Positions 46,949 through 55,756 of a stretch of DNA of 64,000 nucleotides are shown here, one piece after another (positions within the stretch are counted from its first letter, which is position 1; each line of letters begins with the position of its first letter). Made by a program: the position numbers and the translations under genes. Location of the stretch: the NCBI RefSeq assembly GCF_900230195.1, contig NZ_OCNE01000015.1, positions 1 through 64,000 of the forward strand. Reading direction: 5' to 3'. Source of the stretch: Streptomyces zhaozhouensis (GTDB lineage Bacteria > Actinomycetota > Actinomycetes > Streptomycetales > Streptomycetaceae). The notes under the pieces were generated by a model. It ran no database searches, had not been told where the DNA came from, and was given only the letters and a program-made list of their open reading frames with translations.

Positions 46949-47371
46949 ATGCTGCGAACCATGTTCAAGTCGAAGATCCACCGAGCCACGGTGACGGAGG
47001 CCGACCTGCACTACGTGGGTTCGGTGACCATAGACGCCGACCTGATGGACGCCGCCGACCTGCTCCCCGGCGAGCAGGTGCACATCGTCGACATCGACAA
47101 CGGCAACCGCCTGGAGACCTATGTCATCGAGGGCCGTCGCGGCTCCGGCGTCATCGGGATCAACGGCGCGGCCGCGCACCTGGTCAAGCCCGGTGACCTG
47201 GTGATCCTGATCAGCTACGCCCAGGTCGACGACGCCGAGGCCCGCGCGCTGCGTCCCTCCGTCGTCCATGTCGACGCCGACAACCGCGTGGTCGCCCTCG
47301 GCGCCGACCCCTCCGAGCCGGTTCCCGGCGGTGACACCCGCCGCGGCCCGCTCTCCACCGCCCGCGCCTGA
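46949..47371 (+). CDS. panD: aspartate 1-decarboxylase
   Basis: 140 aa. Pyruvoyl enzyme that makes beta-alanine for pantothenate and CoA. The proenzyme self-cleaves at Gly24-Ser25 in [10 protein letters not shown], giving the pyruvoyl group on the large chain; that motif is intact. Core blocks [30 protein letters not shown] and [10 protein letters not shown] are canonical. The C-terminal ~22 residues past the usual core (after VDADNRVV) are polar and variable. ATG at 46949 with CTGGAG upstream. No panB or panC nearby. Confidence 0.95.
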
Positions 47372-47462: not shown

Positions 47463-48677
47463 TCAGCCCTCGTAACCGCTGACGCTGTCGAAGACCTCCT
47501 GGGCCTCCACGTCGAGGCGCGGTCCCGCGAGCCAGGTGCTCTCCAGCGGGCCGATCGAGTTGACCGAGACCAGCTCGGCCTCGCCGTCGTCGCCCGCGCG
47601 CAGCCACGGGCCGCCGGACGAGCCACCGGTCATGGTGCAGCCCGCCCAGTACAGAACGGGCATCGTCGGGTCGATCGTCAGCCGGCCCGGGGTGTCGGTG
47701 CACCGGTACATCAGCGCGCCGTCGTAGGGCTCGGCGGCCGGGAAGCCGTAGAGCGTGGTGTCACCGAGGCCCGAGACGGCGGGGGCGTCGAAGTTGATGT
47801 CGACGGCGGAGCCGACCGTCTCCTCCAGCGAACGGCCGCTGCCGTCCTCGGGCTCCACCGACATGATCGCGAAGTCGCCGTGCGCGCCCTCGCCGCCGGT
47901 GGTGGTGCCGTTCTCCAGCCAGTACTGGGTGGTCGAGACGTAGGTGGCCCAGTAGATGCCGTACGGGTGGACGGAGCCCGCGTTGGCCTCGTTCTCCGCC
48001 TCCATCGCCGACAGGCCGTCGTTGTTGTAGGCCGGGACGAAGCTCAGGTTCCGGTACCAGCCGCCGCCCACGCCCGCGTGGACGCAGTGGCCGGCGGTGG
48101 CCACCAGGTTGGACTGGCCCGGGCGGGCCGGGTCCTTGACCACGGTGCCGGAGCAGACCATCGGGCCCTCGGGGCTGTCGAAGAAGACCTTGCCTATCGG
48201 CGCGCCGTTCTCCGTGTAGGGCGTCGGCACGGCCTCCGCCTCGATGGGCGTCGGCTCCAGGTCGGTGACGCCGCGGTCGTCCATCGGGTCGTCCGCGTCG
48301 GGCGCGTTGGCGTCCTCGTCGATCTGACCGTCGTCGATCGACTGGTCGGGGTCCTCCGCCTCGCCCATCCGGTCGGTGTCCCACAGACCCTCGATGATCG
48401 GGTTGACGAAGTCGCCGATCTCGCGCAGCCAGGTGTCCTGGTCCCAGTCCTCCCAGCCACCCTCGACCCAGCGGTCCACGTCGAACTCGAAGGGCAGGTT
48501 GTCGAGCACGTCCTGGAGCTCGTCTCCCCCCTCGGACGGCGTCTCCTCACTGGGCTGCGCGTTGTCGCCCGAGTCGTCGTCATTGCACGCGGTGGCGGTC
48601 AACGCGAGGCACACGGCCATTCCCGTCGTCGCCAGCGCGATGCGGCGACGCGATGCCCGTCGGCGTATCGGTGACAT
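47463..48677 (-). CDS. trypsin-like serine peptidase lipoprotein
   Basis: 404 aa. Signal peptide with lipobox LTATAC and acylated Cys31. Residues about 32-150 are a strongly acidic, Asp/Glu-rich spacer with tryptophans (WVEGGWEDWDQD). The chymotrypsin-fold domain (about 155-400) has the full catalytic triad: H197 (ATAGHC), D268 (GDFAIM) and S354 (GGSSGGPW). Cysteines at C174/C198 and near C325/C346 could form disulfides. By sequence a surface-anchored protease; its substrate is unknown. It is divergent from the siderophore block, with 280 bp between. Confidence 0.85.
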   Translation of the reverse strand: MSPIRRRASRRRIALATTGMAVCLALTATACNDDDSGDNAQPSEETPSEGGDELQDVLDNLPFEFDVDRWVEGGWEDWDQDTWLREIGDFVNPIIEGLWDTDRMGEAEDPDQSIDDGQIDEDANAPDADDPMDDRGVTDLEPTPIEAEAVPTPYTENGAPIGKVFFDSPEGPMVCSGTVVKDPARPGQSNLVATAGHCVHAGVGGGWYRNLSFVPAYNNDGLSAMEAENEANAGSVHPYGIYWATYVSTTQYWLENGTTTGGEGAHGDFAIMSVEPEDGSGRSLEETVGSAVDINFDAPAVSGLGDTTLYGFPAAEPYDGALMYRCTDTPGRLTIDPTMPVLYWAGCTMTGGSSGGPWLRAGDDGEAELVSVNSIGPLESTWLAGPRLDVEAQEVFDSVSGYEG

Positions 48678-48957
48678 GGGTCAATCCCCCTGAAGCAGTG
48701 GTTCTTCGCATGGGCTAGGCAGACTCGCCTGACGGGTCAGGCGCCCCCCAACTATGCCGGTGTCCATCTTGACGGCGATGACCGGGTCCCCGGTTCCCCA
48801 CGGTCGCCAGGGGACTTTCGGACAAGAAATCCGATGACCGCCCGTGATCCGGGAGGCACTCGGTCGTTACTACGAATGGTGGTACGTCACCGCACTCCGA
48901 CCAACTGCCCGACGGGGCTCAAGAATTCACACGAAGGAGGGAGGCGCGTCCGCTCGG
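48678..48957. promoter_or_regulatory. divergent region between peptidase and siderophore genes, with palindrome
   Basis: 280 bp. GCCTGAC-GG-GTCAGGC (48727-48742) is a perfect 7-bp-arm palindrome, preceded by CTAGGC. The DmdR1/IdeR iron box (TTAGGTTAGGCTAACCTAA type) would be expected upstream of siderophore genes; I find no 19-bp match, only CTAGG-N8-CCTGA at 48715-48732, one base short. TTGACG at 48769-48774 could be a -35. A strong AAGGAGGGAGG ribosome binding site lies at about 48934-48944. Confidence 0.5.
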
Positions 48958-50985
48958 TTGACCCGGGTGTCGCCGCGCCGCACCCCGATGAACGCACGCC
49001 CCCGCCCCGACCATGGCGCACAGCAGGAGGCGGCCTCCTCGGTTTCCCCCGTCCCCCCGATCTCCTCCGTTCCGCAGGGCCCCGCGTCCTCCGCCGGGCT
49101 CGTCGAGCACTCCGTGCCCCGCCAGACCCGCCACGCGCCGGACGACCTCCCCCGTCGCTCCTCCACCTCCCACGGCTTCCCCGTCGAGCACGCCGGAGCG
49201 CCGGGCGAACGGCCGGACGACGTCGATCCGCTCACGCACCCGGACCCGGAGGTCGCGGCCGACGCCGCCGCGTGCGAGGGGCTGTTGCGCTGCTGGATCA
49301 GGGAGACGGGGGTGGCCCGGCCGGCGGGCGGCGTGCTCGCCCTGCCGCTGCCGGCCTCGGGCGCCGCGCTGCGCGTCCCGGTGCGCCACTGGTCGGCGAC
49401 GGGGTGGCACCGTTTCGGGGTGCCCGAGTTGGCGACGGCTCCGGTCGGCGCCCCGCCGCTGGACGCGGTGACGCTGGCCGCGCTGCTCGGCCGCGAGGCG
49501 GCGAGCGCGGCCGGCGGACGGGTGGACGGGGAGACCGCGGCGCTCGTCGGGCGGGTCGCCGACTCCCAGCGCAGGACGGCGCTCTTCCTCGCGCACCGCA
49601 GGGCCGAGCCCGGCCCGGCGCGGCACGGGCACGCCTTCCTCGACGCCGAGCAGTCGGTGCTCCTCGGGCACCCGCTCCACCCCAACCCCAAGAGCCTGGA
49701 GGGCATCGCCGGCCGGGAGGCCGCCCGTTGCTCGCCCGAGCTGCGCGGTTCTTTCCGGCTGCACTGGCTGGCCGTCGACCGCGCGGTGCTCGCCACCGAC
49801 TCCGCCTGGCGCGAGGAGGGAGGCGAGGTCCCCGCCGAGACCCTGGCCGCCAGGGCGGCCGGCGCGCCCCTGCCCCTGCCGCCCGGCACGGTCCCGCTGC
49901 CGCTCCACCCCTGGCAGGCCAGGGACGTGGCGCACCGCCCCGCCGTCGCCGAGCTGTTCGCCGAAGGGCTCCTCCACGATCTGGGCGAGCACGGCCCCCC
50001 GTGGCACCCGACCTCCTCGGTCCGCACGGTGCTGCGCCCCGGCGCAGAGGTGATGCTGAAGCTCTCCCTCGGCCTGTGGATCACCAACTCCCGCCGGGAG
50101 AACCTCCGCAAGGAGCTGCACCGGGGCGTCGAGGCGCACCGCCTCCTGGAGGGCGGCCTCGCCGCCGAGCTGCGCGCCGCCTGCGGTCCCGGCTTCGACA
50201 TCGTCAGGGACCCGGCCTGGCTCGCCGTCGACGACCTGGCGGGGCGGCCGATCCCGGGGATGGACACGCTGCTGCGGCAGAGCCCGTTCGGCCCCGAGGA
50301 CGACGTGCTCTGCCTGGCCGCGCTCACCGCGCAGCGCCCCTGGCCGGGCCGGTCGGGCGCGTTCTCCTCGCGCCTCGCCGAGGTGGTGCGTCGGTTGGCC
50401 GAGAGCACGGGCGCCGGCCGGGCGGCGGTCGCCGAGGAGTGGCTGGGGCGGTATCTGCGCGCGGTGGTGCGTCCGGTGCTCTGGCTCGACGCGCACGCCG
50501 GCGTCGCGCTGGAGGCCCACCAGCAGAACACGCTGGTCCTGCTCGACGCCGAGGGGTGGCCGGTCGGCGGCCGGTACCGGGACAACCAGGGCTACTACTT
50601 CCGTGACTCCCACCGGGCCGCGCTCCGGCGGAGGTCGCCGGGGCTGGGGGAGCGCTCCGACACCTTCGTGCCGGACGCCGTGACCGACGAGCGCTTCGCC
50701 TACTACCTGGGGATCAACAACATCCTGGGCCTGGTCGGCGCCCTGGGCGCGCAGGGGCTCGCCGAGGAGACGGCGCTGCTCGCGGTCGTCCGGGCCTTCC
50801 TCGCCGAGGAGGCGGGGCGTGCGGACGGCCCGGTCTCGCCGCTGGTCTCCCACCTGTTGACGGCCGGCACCCTGCGCTGCAAGGCCAACCTGCTGACCCG
50901 CCTGCGCGGCATGGACGAGCTGACCGGCCCGGTCGACGGCCAGTCGGTCTACGTCGCGCTGGCCAACCCCCTGGCCCCCCGCTGA
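48958..50985 (+). CDS. IucA/IucC-family NIS siderophore synthetase
   Basis: 675 aa from a TTG 13 nt after a strong AAGGAGGGAGG; GTG 48967 and ATG 48988 are in-frame alternatives. Residues about 1-90 are disordered (Pro/Ser/Arg). The NIS synthetase core follows: EQSVLLGHPLHPNPKSLEGI (ATP-binding HP-x-HP-x-x-K), VPLPLHPWQARDV, TSSVRTVL, KLSLGLWITNSRR, and a FhuF-like C-terminal part with HQQNTLVLLDAEG and YRDNQGYYFRDS. Such enzymes condense a carboxylate (citrate, succinate or an amino-diacid) with a polyamine or amino alcohol. First gene of a synthetase-acyltransferase-synthetase set resembling the rhbC-rhbD-rhbF part of rhizobactin-type clusters. Confidence 0.88.
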   Translation: MTRVSPRRTPMNARPRPDHGAQQEAASSVSPVPPISSVPQGPASSAGLVEHSVPRQTRHAPDDLPRRSSTSHGFPVEHAGAPGERPDDVDPLTHPDPEVAADAAACEGLLRCWIRETGVARPAGGVLALPLPASGAALRVPVRHWSATGWHRFGVPELATAPVGAPPLDAVTLAALLGREAASAAGGRVDGETAALVGRVADSQRRTALFLAHRRAEPGPARHGHAFLDAEQSVLLGHPLHPNPKSLEGIAGREAARCSPELRGSFRLHWLAVDRAVLATDSAWREEGGEVPAETLAARAAGAPLPLPPGTVPLPLHPWQARDVAHRPAVAELFAEGLLHDLGEHGPPWHPTSSVRTVLRPGAEVMLKLSLGLWITNSRRENLRKELHRGVEAHRLLEGGLAAELRAACGPGFDIVRDPAWLAVDDLAGRPIPGMDTLLRQSPFGPEDDVLCLAALTAQRPWPGRSGAFSSRLAEVVRRLAESTGAGRAAVAEEWLGRYLRAVVRPVLWLDAHAGVALEAHQQNTLVLLDAEGWPVGGRYRDNQGYYFRDSHRAALRRRSPGLGERSDTFVPDAVTDERFAYYLGINNILGLVGALGAQGLAEETALLAVVRAFLAEEAGRADGPVSPLVSHLLTAGTLRCKANLLTRLRGMDELTGPVDGQSVYVALANPLAPR

Positions 50986-51002
50986 GCCCCACACCGCCGC
51001 AG

Positions 51003-51072
51003 CGACCGAGAACGAGAACGACCGAGAACGACCGAGCACGACCGAGCGAGAACGAGAACGAGCACGACCGAC
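51003..51072 (+). repeat. GAACGA/CGACCGAG repeat tract in the siderophore mRNA leader
   Basis: About 70 bp made almost only of the elements GAACGA, GAGCACGA and CGACCGAG in irregular tandem, immediately before the acyltransferase gene. Purine-rich and nearly free of T on the + strand, unlike any other stretch of the window. Confidence 0.85.
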
Positions 51073-51122
51073 GCGGAGCACAGCGGACCGAGAACCGCGT
51101 AGCAACGGAGAGGAGACGGAGC

Positions 51123-51725
51123 GTGACCACCCCTTCGACGTCGCCCCCCGAGGGGTCGCCGACGGCGCCGGTCGAGCCGTTGGCGGGGCTCGCCGACTGG
51201 CCACCGCGCCCGACGGTCGCCGGCTCCTTCCGACTGCGGCCCGTGGACCCGGAACGCGATCTCCCGCTGCTCACCGGCTGGATGAACGACCCGGCCGTGG
51301 ACGCCTTCTGGCAGCTGGCCGGGCCGGCCGAGCGGACCGCCGAGCAGGTGCGCCGGCAGTTGGTGCCCGGCGGCCACAGCCTGCCCTGCCTGGGGCTGCT
51401 GGACGGCCGGGCGATGAGCTACTGGGAGATCTACCGCGCCGATCTCGACCCGCTCGCCGCCCACTATCCGGCCCTGCTCCACGACATGGGCGTCCATCTC
51501 GCGATCGGCCCCCCGGAGGACCGGGGGCGGGGCCTCGGCTCGGTGCTGCTGCGCGCGGTGGCGGACGCGGTGCTGGAGCACGCCCCCCGCGCCCCCCGGG
51601 TGGTCGCCGAGCCCGACGTGCGGAACGTGGCCTCCCTGGCCGCCTTCCGCGCGGCCGGCTTCCGCAAGACGGCGGAGCTGCGACTGCCGGACAAGCGTGC
51701 CGCCCTGCTGGTCAGGCGGCGCTGA
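51123..51725 (+). CDS. siderophore-type GNAT N-acyltransferase
   Basis: 200 aa. Matches the Acetyltransf_8 / IucB-RhbD group: FRLRPVDPERDLPLLTGWMN near 36-55, YWEIYRADLDPLAAHYPALLHDMGVHLAIG in the middle, acetyl-CoA loop DRGRGLGSVLLRAV (about 138-151) and RVVAEPDVRNVASLAAFRAAGF near the end. It would acylate an N-hydroxylated polyamine or lysine before condensation. GTG start with GGAGACGGAG just upstream. It lies between the two NIS synthetases. Confidence 0.88.
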   Translation: MTTPSTSPPEGSPTAPVEPLAGLADWPPRPTVAGSFRLRPVDPERDLPLLTGWMNDPAVDAFWQLAGPAERTAEQVRRQLVPGGHSLPCLGLLDGRAMSYWEIYRADLDPLAAHYPALLHDMGVHLAIGPPEDRGRGLGSVLLRAVADAVLEHAPRAPRVVAEPDVRNVASLAAFRAAGFRKTAELRLPDKRAALLVRRR

Positions 51726-51840
51726 GGGCCGGTCGGCAGCCCGCGTCGCCTCCCCGGCACGGGCCCGACCGGCCCCACCTCGCCCGCACCACCGCACCAC
51801 TCGATCACCGGCCTCGCCGGCCTCACCAAGGGAGCGACCG

Positions 51841-53691
51841 TTGTCCATACCGAGCACAGCCCCGATCCCCGGACCGGATACCGGCCCGAGTTCCGGATTC
51901 CCCCCGGGCTCCGCCGCCGACCCCGCCGGGCCGCCCTCCGACCCCGAGCGGTCCGAGAGCGGACGCTGGCGCCGCGCGTCGCGCGAGCTGTTCGCCAAGA
52001 TGCTGGCCGAGTTCGCCTACGAGGGCATCATCACCCCGTACGCCGAGCACGGACAGCCGGGCGGCTACGAGCTGCCCGTCAATGAGGAGTTGACCTACCG
52101 GTTCCGCGCCCGGCGCGGGGCCTACGGCCACTGGCGAATCGATCCTTCCTCGATCACCCCGGACGCCGACCCCCTGGAGTTCGTCGCCGCGGCGCACGAC
52201 CGGGTGCTGGGGCTCTCCGGCGACACCACCGGCCATCTGATCCGTGAACTGACCGCCACCCTCGGCGCCGACGCCGCCCTCGCCGCCGAGCAACTGCCCG
52301 TCGAGCGGTTGGTGGAGCTGGACCACGCGGGCCTGGAGGGACGGCAGACCGGGCACCCCTGGCTGGTCGCCAACAAGGGGCGGCTGGGCTTCTCCGCCAG
52401 CGACACCCGCCGCTGGGCCCCCGAGGCGCGTACCCCGAGCGCCCTGCCCTGGCTGGCCGTGCACCGTTCGCTGGCCACCTACCGGGGGACGGGGGTGGTG
52501 GCCGACGAGGACGCGCTCTACGCCCAGGAGCTCTCCGAGACCACCCGCGAGAGCTTCGCCCGCGTCCTGACCGAGCGGGGGCTGCGGCCCGAGGAGTACC
52601 TGTGGCTGCCGATCCACCCCTGGCAGTGGGACGAGAGCATAGCCACGCTCTACGCGCCGCAGATCGCTGCCGGGCTGCTCGTCCCGCTGCCGAGCGACGG
52701 CGACCTGCGGCTGCCGCAGCAGTCGATCCGCACGTTCCTCAACGTCAGCCGCCCGCACGCGCGTTCGGTCAAGCTGCCGCTGTCCATCCTGAACACCTTG
52801 GTGTGGCGCGGGCTGCCCACCGAGCGCACCCTGGCCGCCCCGGCCGTCACCGCCTGGGTGCTCGGGCTGCGGGACGCGGACCCGTTCCTCGCCGAGGAGA
52901 CCCGGGTGATCCTGCTGGGGGAGACCGCCTCGGTGACCGTGGAGCATCCGCTCTACGATCGGCTGGCCGGCGTTCCCTATCAGTACCGGGAGCTTCTTGG
53001 CTGTATCTGGCGGGAGCCGATCGACTCCTTTCTGGAACCGCACGAACGCGCCCGGACCCTCGCCTCCCTGCTCAGCACCGACGGGCGGGGGCACTCGTTC
53101 ACGGCCGAGCTGGTGCGCCGCTCCGGCCTCGAGCCGCGGGAGTGGCTGCGTCGCCTCTTCGCCGTGCTGCTCCCGCCGCTGCTGCACTTCCTGTACCGCT
53201 ACGGCACGGTCTTCTCGCCGCACGGGGAGAACGCGCTGGTGGTCTTCGACGAGCGGGACATCCCGGTGCGGCTGGCGGTCAAGGACTTCGTCGACGACGT
53301 CAACCTGAGCGCGGAGCCGCTGCCCGAGTTCGAGGGAATGCCGATCGAGGTGCGGGAGGTGCTGCTGACCGAGCAGCCCTCGTTCCTCACCCAGTTCATC
53401 CACTCGGGGCTGTTCGTCGGCGTCTTCCGCTTCCTGGCGCCCCTGTGCGAGGAGCGGCTGCGGGTGCCGGAGGTCGACTTCTGGGCGCTCGTGCGGGCCG
53501 AGATCCTCGCCTACCAGCACCGTTTCCCCGAGCTCAAACACCGGTTCGAGACCTTCGACCTGCTGGTCCCGAGGATCCAGCGCCTCTGCCTCAACCGCAA
53601 CCGCCTCCAGCTCGACGGCTACCGCGACAGGTCGAGCCGGCCGCACGCCGCCGTGCTGGGCACCGTCGCCAACCCGCTCAATCCTGGCTGA
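51841..53691 (+). CDS. second IucA/IucC-family NIS siderophore synthetase
   Basis: 616 aa from the TTG at 51841 (AAGGGAG 6 nt upstream). A Ser/Pro-rich lead of ~45 residues precedes the synthetase: TGHPWLVANKGRLGFSASD (ATP-binding block), WLPIHPWQWDESI, QQSIRTFLNVS, KLPLSILNTLVWRG, and the C-terminal HGENALVVFDERDIPVRLAV and KDFVDDVNLS. The HPW-ANKGR form is that of the DesD/AlcC-like (type C) synthetases, which join monocarboxylated units and can macrocyclise. It probably carries out the last condensation. Decarboxylase, N-hydroxylase and export genes are not in the block. Confidence 0.9.
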   Translation: MSIPSTAPIPGPDTGPSSGFPPGSAADPAGPPSDPERSESGRWRRASRELFAKMLAEFAYEGIITPYAEHGQPGGYELPVNEELTYRFRARRGAYGHWRIDPSSITPDADPLEFVAAAHDRVLGLSGDTTGHLIRELTATLGADAALAAEQLPVERLVELDHAGLEGRQTGHPWLVANKGRLGFSASDTRRWAPEARTPSALPWLAVHRSLATYRGTGVVADEDALYAQELSETTRESFARVLTERGLRPEEYLWLPIHPWQWDESIATLYAPQIAAGLLVPLPSDGDLRLPQQSIRTFLNVSRPHARSVKLPLSILNTLVWRGLPTERTLAAPAVTAWVLGLRDADPFLAEETRVILLGETASVTVEHPLYDRLAGVPYQYRELLGCIWREPIDSFLEPHERARTLASLLSTDGRGHSFTAELVRRSGLEPREWLRRLFAVLLPPLLHFLYRYGTVFSPHGENALVVFDERDIPVRLAVKDFVDDVNLSAEPLPEFEGMPIEVREVLLTEQPSFLTQFIHSGLFVGVFRFLAPLCEERLRVPEVDFWALVRAEILAYQHRFPELKHRFETFDLLVPRIQRLCLNRNRLQLDGYRDRSSRPHAAVLGTVANPLNPG

Positions 53692-53746: not shown

Positions 53747-55756
53747 ATGACTGGCACATCGGGGAAGCCCTCCCTCACCGAGCTGTTGCACGCCGCCGTC
53801 GTCGCCGTGGGCGGCTCAGAACGGCCTGGTCAGGTGGCCATGGCCCAGGCCGTGGCCGGCGCGGTCGAGGACGGTTCGCACCTGCTGATCCAGGCCGGCA
53901 CCGGCACCGGCAAGTCGCTGGGGTACCTGGTGCCGGCCATCGCGGGCGGCGACCGGGTGGTCGTCGCCACGGCCACCCTGGCGCTCCAGCGGCAGCTGAT
54001 CGAGCGGGACCTGCCGCGCACGGTCGAGGCCCTGCGGCCGCTGCTGCGGCGGCGGCCCGAGTACGCCACGCTCAAGGGCCGGTCCAACTACCTGTGTCTG
54101 CACAGGCTGCACGAGGGCGTGCCCAGCGACGACGAGCAGGGCCTCTTCGACCCGCTGGAGGCCGCCCAGGCGATGGGCGGCCCGACCAGCCGGCTCGGCA
54201 AGGACCTGCTGAGGCTGCGGGACTGGGCGGACGAGACGGAGTCGGGGGACCGGGACGACCTCTCTCCCGGCGTCTCGGACCGTGCCTGGTCGCAGGTCTC
54301 GGTCTCCTCCCGAGAGTGCCTGGGTGCGAGCAGGTGCGTCTACGGCATGGAGTGCTTCGCCGAGGCGGCCAGGGAGCGGGCCAAGGTCGCCGAGGTGATC
54401 GTCACCAACCACGCGCTGCTGGCCATCGACGCGATCGAGGGCGCCCCGGTGCTCCCGGGGCACGAGGTGCTGATCGTGGACGAGGCGCACGAGTTGGTCT
54501 CGCGGGTGACGGGGGTCGCCACCGGAGAGCTGACCCCCGGCGGGGTGAACCGCGCGGTCCGCCGGGCGGCCAAGCTGGTGGACGAGAAGGTGGCCGACCA
54601 GCTCCAGACGGCGGCGGAGAGCTTCGAGCGGCTGATGGAGCTGGCCCTGCCCGGGCGCCTGGAGTCGCTGCCCGAGGACCTGGGCTACGCGGTGGCGGCG
54701 CTGCGGGACGCGTCGCGCGCGGTGATCACGGCGCTCGGGGCCACCAAGGACTCCTCGGTGGCGGACGAGGACGCGGTGCGCAAGCAGGCGCTCGCCTCGG
54801 CGGAGAGCGTGCAGTCGGTCGCCGAACGGCTCTGTCAGGGCTCGGAGTTCGACGTCATCTGGTGCGAACGACACGACCGCTTCGGCGCCTCGCTGCGGGT
54901 GGCGCCGCTGTCGGTCTCGGGGCTGCTGCGGGAGAAGCTCTTCACCGACCGCTCGGTGGTGCTGACCTCGGCCACGCTCAAGCTCGGCGGCGACTTCAAC
55001 GGGGTGGGCGCCTCCCTGGGACTGGCGCCCGAGGGGGAGCGCGGCGAGGAGCTGCCGGTCTGGCAGGGCCTCGACGTGGGCTCGCCGTTCGACTACCGCA
55101 AGCAGGGCATCCTCTACGTCGCCAAGCACCTCTCGCCGCCGGGACGTGAGGGCAGCAGGAGCGACATGCTCGACGAGCTGGCCGAGCTGGTGGAGGCCGC
55201 GGGCGGGAGGACGCTCGGGCTCTTCTCCTCGATGCGCGGCGCGCAGGCCGCCGCCCAGGAGCTGCGCGGCCGGCTGGACCTGCCGATTCTGCTCCAGGGG
55301 GAGGAGACCCTGGGCGAGCTGATCAAGGCTTTCGCCGAGGACCCGCGGACGTGTCTTTTCGGGACGCTCTCGCTCTGGCAGGGCGTCGACGTGCCGGGGC
55401 CGAGCTGTCAGTTGGTCGTGATGGACAGGGTGCCCTTCCCCCGGCCGGACGATCCGCTGGTCAGCGCCCGTCAGAAGGCGGTGGAGGAGAAGGGGGGGAA
55501 CGGCTTCATGGCGGTGGCCGCGACGCACGCCGCGCTGCTGATGGCGCAGGGGGCCGGGCGGCTGGTGCGCTCCAGCGGGGACAAGGGGGTCGTCGCCGTC
55601 CTGGATCCCCGGTTGGAGAAGGCCAGGTACGGGAGCTTTCTGCGGGCCTCGATGCCCGACTTCTGGTACACGACGGACCGGAACCAGGTGCGCCGCTCCC
55701 TGGCGGCGATCGACGCGGCAGCGCGGGACGCCGCCGCGTCGGCGAACGGCACCTGA
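53747..55756 (+). CDS. dinG: DinG-family ATP-dependent DNA helicase
   Basis: 669 aa. XPD-like 5'-3' helicase associated with repair. Walker A QAGTGTGKSLGYLVP at about residues 47-61, ATATLALQRQLI, the DEAH box VDEAHE, and C-terminal motifs LGLFSSMRGAQAAA, FGTLSLWQGVDVPG and QGAGRLVRSSGDKG. Cysteines (YLCLHR; CLGASRCVYGMEC) suggest the XPD-type Fe-S cluster. The ATG at 53747 lacks a ribosome binding site; TAGGGT at 53731-53736 may be a -10 giving a near-leaderless transcript. It is convergent with lexA. No LexA box is visible upstream. Confidence 0.93.
   Translation: MTGTSGKPSLTELLHAAVVAVGGSERPGQVAMAQAVAGAVEDGSHLLIQAGTGTGKSLGYLVPAIAGGDRVVVATATLALQRQLIERDLPRTVEALRPLLRRRPEYATLKGRSNYLCLHRLHEGVPSDDEQGLFDPLEAAQAMGGPTSRLGKDLLRLRDWADETESGDRDDLSPGVSDRAWSQVSVSSRECLGASRCVYGMECFAEAARERAKVAEVIVTNHALLAIDAIEGAPVLPGHEVLIVDEAHELVSRVTGVATGELTPGGVNRAVRRAAKLVDEKVADQLQTAAESFERLMELALPGRLESLPEDLGYAVAALRDASRAVITALGATKDSSVADEDAVRKQALASAESVQSVAERLCQGSEFDVIWCERHDRFGASLRVAPLSVSGLLREKLFTDRSVVLTSATLKLGGDFNGVGASLGLAPEGERGEELPVWQGLDVGSPFDYRKQGILYVAKHLSPPGREGSRSDMLDELAELVEAAGGRTLGLFSSMRGAQAAAQELRGRLDLPILLQGEETLGELIKAFAEDPRTCLFGTLSLWQGVDVPGPSCQLVVMDRVPFPRPDDPLVSARQKAVEEKGGNGFMAVAATHAALLMAQGAGRLVRSSGDKGVVAVLDPRLEKARYGSFLRASMPDFWYTTDRNQVRRSLAAIDAAARDAAASANGT

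Follow-up and report, generated by a model that had tools for sequence, protein, structure and literature searches.

The synthetase block and its counterparts in relatives

The DNA considered here, referred to as the window, is a stretch of 64,000 nucleotides from Streptomyces zhaozhouensis (contig NZ_OCNE01000015.1, contig C14 in the 6.5 Mb genome). Between hflX and dinG the window carries a block of three siderophore-type genes, two synthetases of the IucA/IucC-FhuF type (SYN1 and SYN2) around one N-acyltransferase (GNAT), and the source of the amine that they might use is the subject of this text. S. sedi is the closest named genome by SYN1 (92%). The block and the promoter motif of extracytoplasmic function (ECF) sigma type upstream of it are as follows.

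48843..48868, forward strand: ECF-sigma-like promoter motif CGTG[AT]TC-N13-GTCGTT, CGTGATCCGGGAGGCACTCGGTCGTT at 48843, upstream of the block
48958..50985, forward strand: SYN1, IucA/IucC-FhuF synthetase, type-A-like (RhbC/IucA-like), PF04183 and PF06276
51123..51725, forward strand: GNAT, siderophore N-acyltransferase (RhbD-like), Acetyltransf_8 5.1e-47
~51841..53691, start codon approximate, forward strand: SYN2, IucA/IucC-FhuF synthetase, type-C-like (RhbF/DesD/IucC-like), PF04183 and PF06276

SYN1 starts at TTG 48958 or ATG 48988 and ends at 50985. Its Pfam matches (IucA_IucC 2.5e-57, FhuF 5.4e-36) are accompanied by aerobactin synthase IucA as closest PDB match (4.7e-55), while SYN2 (IucA_IucC 2.7e-72, FhuF 9.7e-40) ranks DesD first (1.9e-98) and IucC second (7.7e-92). 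The GNAT, flanked by these type-A-like and type-C-like enzymes as in an rhb-like core, is closest in the PDB to the mycobactin acyltransferase MbtK (3.8e-40). Both kinds of match agree with the original prediction that two synthetases of differing subtype surround one acyltransferase in the order rhbC-rhbD-rhbF. The core is also without amine-making genes of its own, as had been claimed: no decarboxylase of the rhb-like kind (DC), aminotransferase (AT) or N-hydroxylase (N-monooxygenase, NMO) lies in the hflX-dinG interval of the window. Since AT, DC and NMO are absent from this interval and the biosynthetic genes do not form one operon, the block is classed as a split variant. Uptake genes are absent as well, but relatives whose operon at this locus is complete also do without them, so that their absence is no sign of reduction and the part of the prediction that counted it as incompleteness falls away.

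The order hflX, protease (reverse strand), block, dinG, lexA, nrdR, nrdJ is kept throughout Streptomycetaceae, and the position seen in the window is kept in most of 80 named loci. A simple codon-usage caller supplied the gene calls for these relatives, which is a weak point of the reading developed below. Several other genera carry a complete AT-DC-SYN1-GNAT-NMO-SYN2 operon at the locus (L049, L056, L058, L059), and four further genomes (G004, G020, G031, G038) are also complete, a Pfam search having placed between GNAT and SYN2 an NMO that the gene caller had missed. Another genus has the form AT-DC-SYN1-GNAT-NMO (L079, L333-L335), and SYN1-GNAT-NMO-SYN2 is found at L045, L048 and L357. AT-SYN1-GNAT-SYN2 is the form of most Streptomyces (about 50 of the 80 named loci), with AT-SYN1-GNAT in others. 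The form of the window, SYN1-GNAT-SYN2, is shared with S. sedi, SBT349, S. harbinensis, S. gossypii, JJ36 and 150FB. On these gene orders the window block is a reduced form of an rhb-like operon. Relatives whose orthologous blocks contain the missing genes had been named with the original prediction as evidence against it, and the complete operons that other Streptomycetaceae carry at this syntenic position are just that; the block is read as half of a split pathway and not as a novel minimal cluster.

Reduction in this sense need not mean decay. Although AT, SYN2, DC and NMO content differs among lineages, as would be expected of a decaying remnant of a formerly complete operon, the three genes are free of internal stops, and the SYN1 motifs kept across 10 relatives include GHPxHPxPKS, PTSSxRT, ITNSRREN, EAHQQN and RDNQGYY. 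The ratio of nonsynonymous to synonymous substitution (dN/dS) against S. sedi is 0.17 for SYN1, 0.25 for GNAT and 0.17 for SYN2, while neighbouring genes give 0.05-0.10 and the other siderophore genes of the same genome 0.11-0.22. The promoter motif is kept in 69/76 relatives and SYN1 in 140/150 Streptomyces genomes. The genes look like intact, working genes under purifying selection, and a degraded remnant, contradicted by motifs, PDB matches and dN/dS alike, is highly improbable.

Other arrangements of these genes occur in the family. In G012, SYN2 is alone between hflX and dinG and the set AT-DC-NMO-SYN1-GNAT is grouped at an unrelated locus (L080:4175-11359, L070:6771-8462), so that this pathway is split there in another way. 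A second cluster of DC-SYN1-NMO-SYN2 type is scattered in some genomes, including some without the pair described below (L054:3640-13315, L254-L257); some copies have an AT, and L054 has major facilitator superfamily and ATP-binding cassette uptake genes.

Two decarboxylase-monooxygenase pairs elsewhere in the genome

A search of the window genome for unlinked decarboxylase and N-monooxygenase genes, the check suggested with the original prediction, finds two PF00282 decarboxylases and no more, along with two strong PF13434 N-monooxygenases; together they form two DC-NMO pairs. The first lies between pyk and pepN (C16:185123-188036) and the second at C22:413476-416369. The genes of the first pair, referred to as the C16 pair, are listed here.

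C16:185123-186550: N-monooxygenase (NMO_16)
C16:186537-188036: decarboxylase (DC_16)

In Streptomyces the syntenic order around this pair is pepN-DC-NMO-pyk-ANTAR regulator-liv genes, with about 60-71% identity outside S. sedi, and among 20 named genomes most have the pair, as judged by synteny. In trees, the DC and NMO of the pyk locus (with a few relocated copies) form single clades beside the in-block enzymes and far from DesA/DesB. DC_16 matches PDB entry 2qma, named a diaminobutyrate transaminase/decarboxylase, at 219 bits versus 189 for desferrioxamine decarboxylase 5o5c. By enzyme family, the genome holds a decarboxylase of diaminobutyrate type and a diamine N-monooxygenase, both unlinked to the block, and dN/dS for the block and this pair together spans 0.11-0.25. 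It appears that, in Streptomyces and closely related genera, DC and NMO have moved out of the block; they stand there side by side, flanked by pepN and pyk. The S. coelicolor pair may be SCO2016/SCO2017, tags for which the literature search gave nothing relevant.

The distribution of block and pair is complementary. A family sample of 41 genomes contains 39 with SYN1 at hflX, and the pyk pair is present in 0/16 of those with an in-block NMO versus 20/23 of those without (Fisher 2.6e-8, uncorrected for descent); two of the 20 pairs are on short contigs or in incomplete context. The remaining three genomes belong to one genus, and two of them carry AT-DC-NMO elsewhere. In a genus sample of 150 Streptomyces, with matches stronger than 1e-200 counted as pyk-type NMO, SYN1 occurs in 140 genomes and the NMO in 133: both in 129, SYN1 only in 11, NMO only in 4 and neither in 6 (Fisher 1.4e-4, again uncorrected for descent). 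Taken together, the gene order, trees and distribution make it probable that a vertically inherited pathway of rhizobactin/schizokinen type is split in two here, with the window block as its assembly half and the DC-NMO pair at pepN-pyk feeding it.

Several observations weigh against this reading. On a dinG tree the pyk pair can be explained by a single change and the in-block NMO by two; the tree gives the pair a single origin, so that the family-wide complementarity is largely one inherited event, and an independent-contrast test on the same tree has just two usable pairs. The 11 genomes with SYN1 and no pyk-type NMO count against it as well, at least 3 of them having another SYN1-NMO cluster, as do the 4 with NMO and no SYN1, whose assemblies are fragmented (320 to 1300 contigs). 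No exact promoter motif is common to block and pyk pair. Several genomes of the same genus lack SYN2 beside GNAT, and SYN2 and AT vary between strains, so the chemistry may vary. The draft of S. mutomycini NRRL B-65393 has AT-SYN1-GNAT-SYN2 and no pyk pair was found in it; there is a tentative report of schizokinen from a different strain of the species, SL02 (PMC11865988, PMC13136089).

The genomes with SYN1 only or NMO only would also suit a block that makes a citrate conjugate needing no hydroxylated amine, a non-hydroxamate, with the pyk pair serving elsewhere, and so would the absence of an iron box from split blocks. This is unlikely, as the GNAT is a member of the hydroxamate acyltransferase family, DC and NMO are within the operon in relatives, and six genomes of the genus survey are without both SYN1 and NMO.

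The original prediction had also allowed that the hydroxylated amine comes from another cluster, for example the desferrioxamine genes. An origin elsewhere in the genome is likely; the source, on present evidence, would be the dedicated C16 pair. Supply by DesA/DesB, the initial hypothesis, was rejected for the window genome since neither DC-NMO pair falls in the DesA/DesB clade and no canonical desAB was found. Nor is the block a desferrioxamine cluster, in which the order is DesABCD and DesD is the only synthetase: it has two synthetases, and desC-desD stand without desAB alongside at C22:469267-471668 (L041:9268-11669), desD (C22:470277) being the genome's third IucA_IucC gene. Many Streptomyces do carry desABCD, and arthrobactin has been seen in S. 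katsurahamanus without a known gene cluster, alongside unassigned siderophore-like clusters (PMC6856088), as might be expected if DesA/DesB supplied N-hydroxycadaverine and the block yielded an arthrobactin-like bis-cadaverine citrate. That this holds is nonetheless improbable, because S. halstedii (G053) has block and pyk pair with no canonical desAB match, and it is the pyk pair, not desAB, that tracks the block. Conservation across the genus and membership in the clade of the in-block enzymes make the C16 pair the likelier amine source.

The second pair (C22:413476-416369; L042:7477-10370) is unlinked to desCD, rhb-like and accompanied by a GntR gene. It could be argued that the window block draws on this pair and not on the C16 pair, as the only other genomes in which it has been seen so far are S. 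sedi, S. harbinensis and SBT349, a group that, like the window genome, has also lost the block AT. Good iron boxes lie upstream of desC (TTAGGTCAGGCTAACCTCA) and of the C22 pair (TTAGGTTAGGCACACCTAA, conserved in the three relatives), whereas the block has none. DC_22 is closest in the PDB to desferrioxamine decarboxylase 5o5c (275 vs 230 bits), while the C16 pair co-occurs with ordinary desABCD in other Streptomyces and so is not the des pair. Supply of the block from C22 is unlikely on these grounds. The C22 pair is most simply read as a desAB substitute, which leaves the C16 pair for the block; C22 pair and desCD would then probably constitute a split desferrioxamine pathway, the second split siderophore pathway in this genome.

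Proposed pathway and its regulation

In the pathway proposed for block and C16 pair, an aminotransferase would first give L-2,4-diaminobutyrate, a step assigned to the block AT in most Streptomyces and presumably to EctB here. Judging by homology, the C16 decarboxylase would convert 2,4-diaminobutyrate to 1,3-diaminopropane, and the C16 NMO would convert the latter to N-hydroxy-1,3-diaminopropane. The window GNAT, by its family, would acylate the hydroxylamine, after which SYN1 may join one acylated unit to citrate and SYN2 the second, forming two amide bonds. The product is likely schizokinen or a close bis-hydroxamate citrate relative. Reports of schizokinen by liquid chromatography-mass spectrometry exist for S. 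anulatus RLA103, S. mutomycini SL02 and Streptomyces sp. SL03, where it was assigned to single clusters (PMC11865988, PMC13136089).

A dedicated diaminobutyrate aminotransferase is lacking in the window genome, as the block AT is absent. Two TIGR00709 proteins score above the cut-off, EctB of the ectoine operon and an enzyme of a nonribosomal peptide synthetase (NRPS) cluster. A relocated block AT was looked for among them and was not shown, EctB being 38% and the NRPS-cluster enzyme 44% identical to the block AT. EctB likely substitutes for the lost AT here. A diaminobutyrate aminotransferase gene at C45:179491-180720 (L092) directly follows a large NRPS gene near the contig end, and that NRPS cluster probably incorporates diaminobutyrate.

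The pathway shares six enzyme classes with rhizobactin 1021 (rhbABCDEF) and schizokinen-type systems, and the complete AT-DC-SYN1-GNAT-NMO-SYN2 set is found at the orthologous locus in relatives. It differs from them in that Streptomyces keep DC and NMO at another chromosomal locus, without an iron box and without uptake genes at the block, and in that the window genome additionally lacks AT. Aerobactin (iucABCD) is likewise made on citrate by type-A-like and type-C-like synthetases with one acyltransferase and one N-hydroxylase; there lysine itself is hydroxylated, whereas the block implies a decarboxylated diamine. Enzyme classes are also shared with desABCD, SYN2 being related to DesD and DC/NMO to DesA/DesB. 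However, DC and NMO fall in separate clades, the des genes are iron-box controlled (8/10 here), and desABCD uses one type-C synthetase without citrate, unlike the pair of the block.

The regulation of the block appears to depart from that of an rhb-like pathway. Neither a consensus iron box nor a Zur-like box was found in the window at up to three mismatches. An iron box precedes the first gene in 10/16 blocks with in-block NMO versus 0/20 blocks from the pyk-pair genomes of the family sample, in 2/76 named Streptomyces blocks versus 37/797 background regions, and before the pyk-locus DC in 1/28. The ECF-like motif (at most one mismatch) lies upstream of 69/76 named Streptomyces blocks versus 1/797 background upstream regions; as these sequences share descent, its conservation indicates constraint only relative to background regions of the same genomes. 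Since the motif is also found upstream of several complete operons bearing an iron box, the ECF-like promoter probably represents the ancestral state, with loss of the iron box at the split. The promoter of the pyk pair is perhaps of a similar class, with CGTT in its -10-like part, and of a different motif. The block motif may resemble sigma-BldN promoters, a consensus for which was not found in the literature searched. A weak palindrome, AGGC-N6-GCCT near 48718, was dropped as its spacing is wrong for an iron box. One tentative possibility is that a genus-wide Streptomyces pathway, split over two fixed loci, has been freed from iron repression and is run by the conserved ECF-sigma-type promoter, its citrate hydroxamate having a developmental, envelope-stress or other metal-handling role and not one in classical iron starvation.

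The window block appears to be the counterpart of SCO5799-5801 of S. coelicolor. We take that cluster to be AT-SYN1-GNAT without SYN2, where the window has SYN1-GNAT-SYN2 without AT, and to lie presumably in the same hflX-dinG-lexA-nrdR-nrdJ surroundings. It has long been described as a three-gene orphan and has been named a putative siderophore-synthetase cluster (PMC3224560, PMC7324645). Cluster-mining tools seek linked genes, so a two-locus pathway is read as an incomplete orphan; no link between the block and the pepN-pyk pair was found in the open-access papers searched. The two-locus pairing would explain orphans of the SCO5799-5801 type and would predict a product for a cluster present in most of the sampled Streptomyces genomes (140/150). 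Where schizokinen has been ascribed in Streptomyces to the block by itself, the second locus is probably needed too, and the pathway would be a case of a siderophore-type system apparently outside iron control.

Neighbouring genes

The genes on either side of the block are those named in the original prediction, a secreted-type protease and dinG.

47463..48677, reverse strand: putative secreted trypsin-like protease, divergent, with lipoprotein-like signal, TAGHC and GGSSGGPW in the translation
53747..55756, forward strand: DinG/YoaA-type helicase, NCBIfam YoaA 455 bits (under the model's own cut-off), DinG-family models

The protease has no Pfam or NCBIfam match, and the call rests on its own sequence; it adjoins the block on the left in nearly all relatives, as the helicase does on the right in nearly all cases. 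Between hflX and the protease, at 46949-47371 of the window, lies a PanD-like (aspartate 1-decarboxylase-like) gene. S. sedi, SBT349, S. harbinensis, S. barkulensis and S. radiopugnans have such a gene at this position too, and like the window they all lack the block AT.

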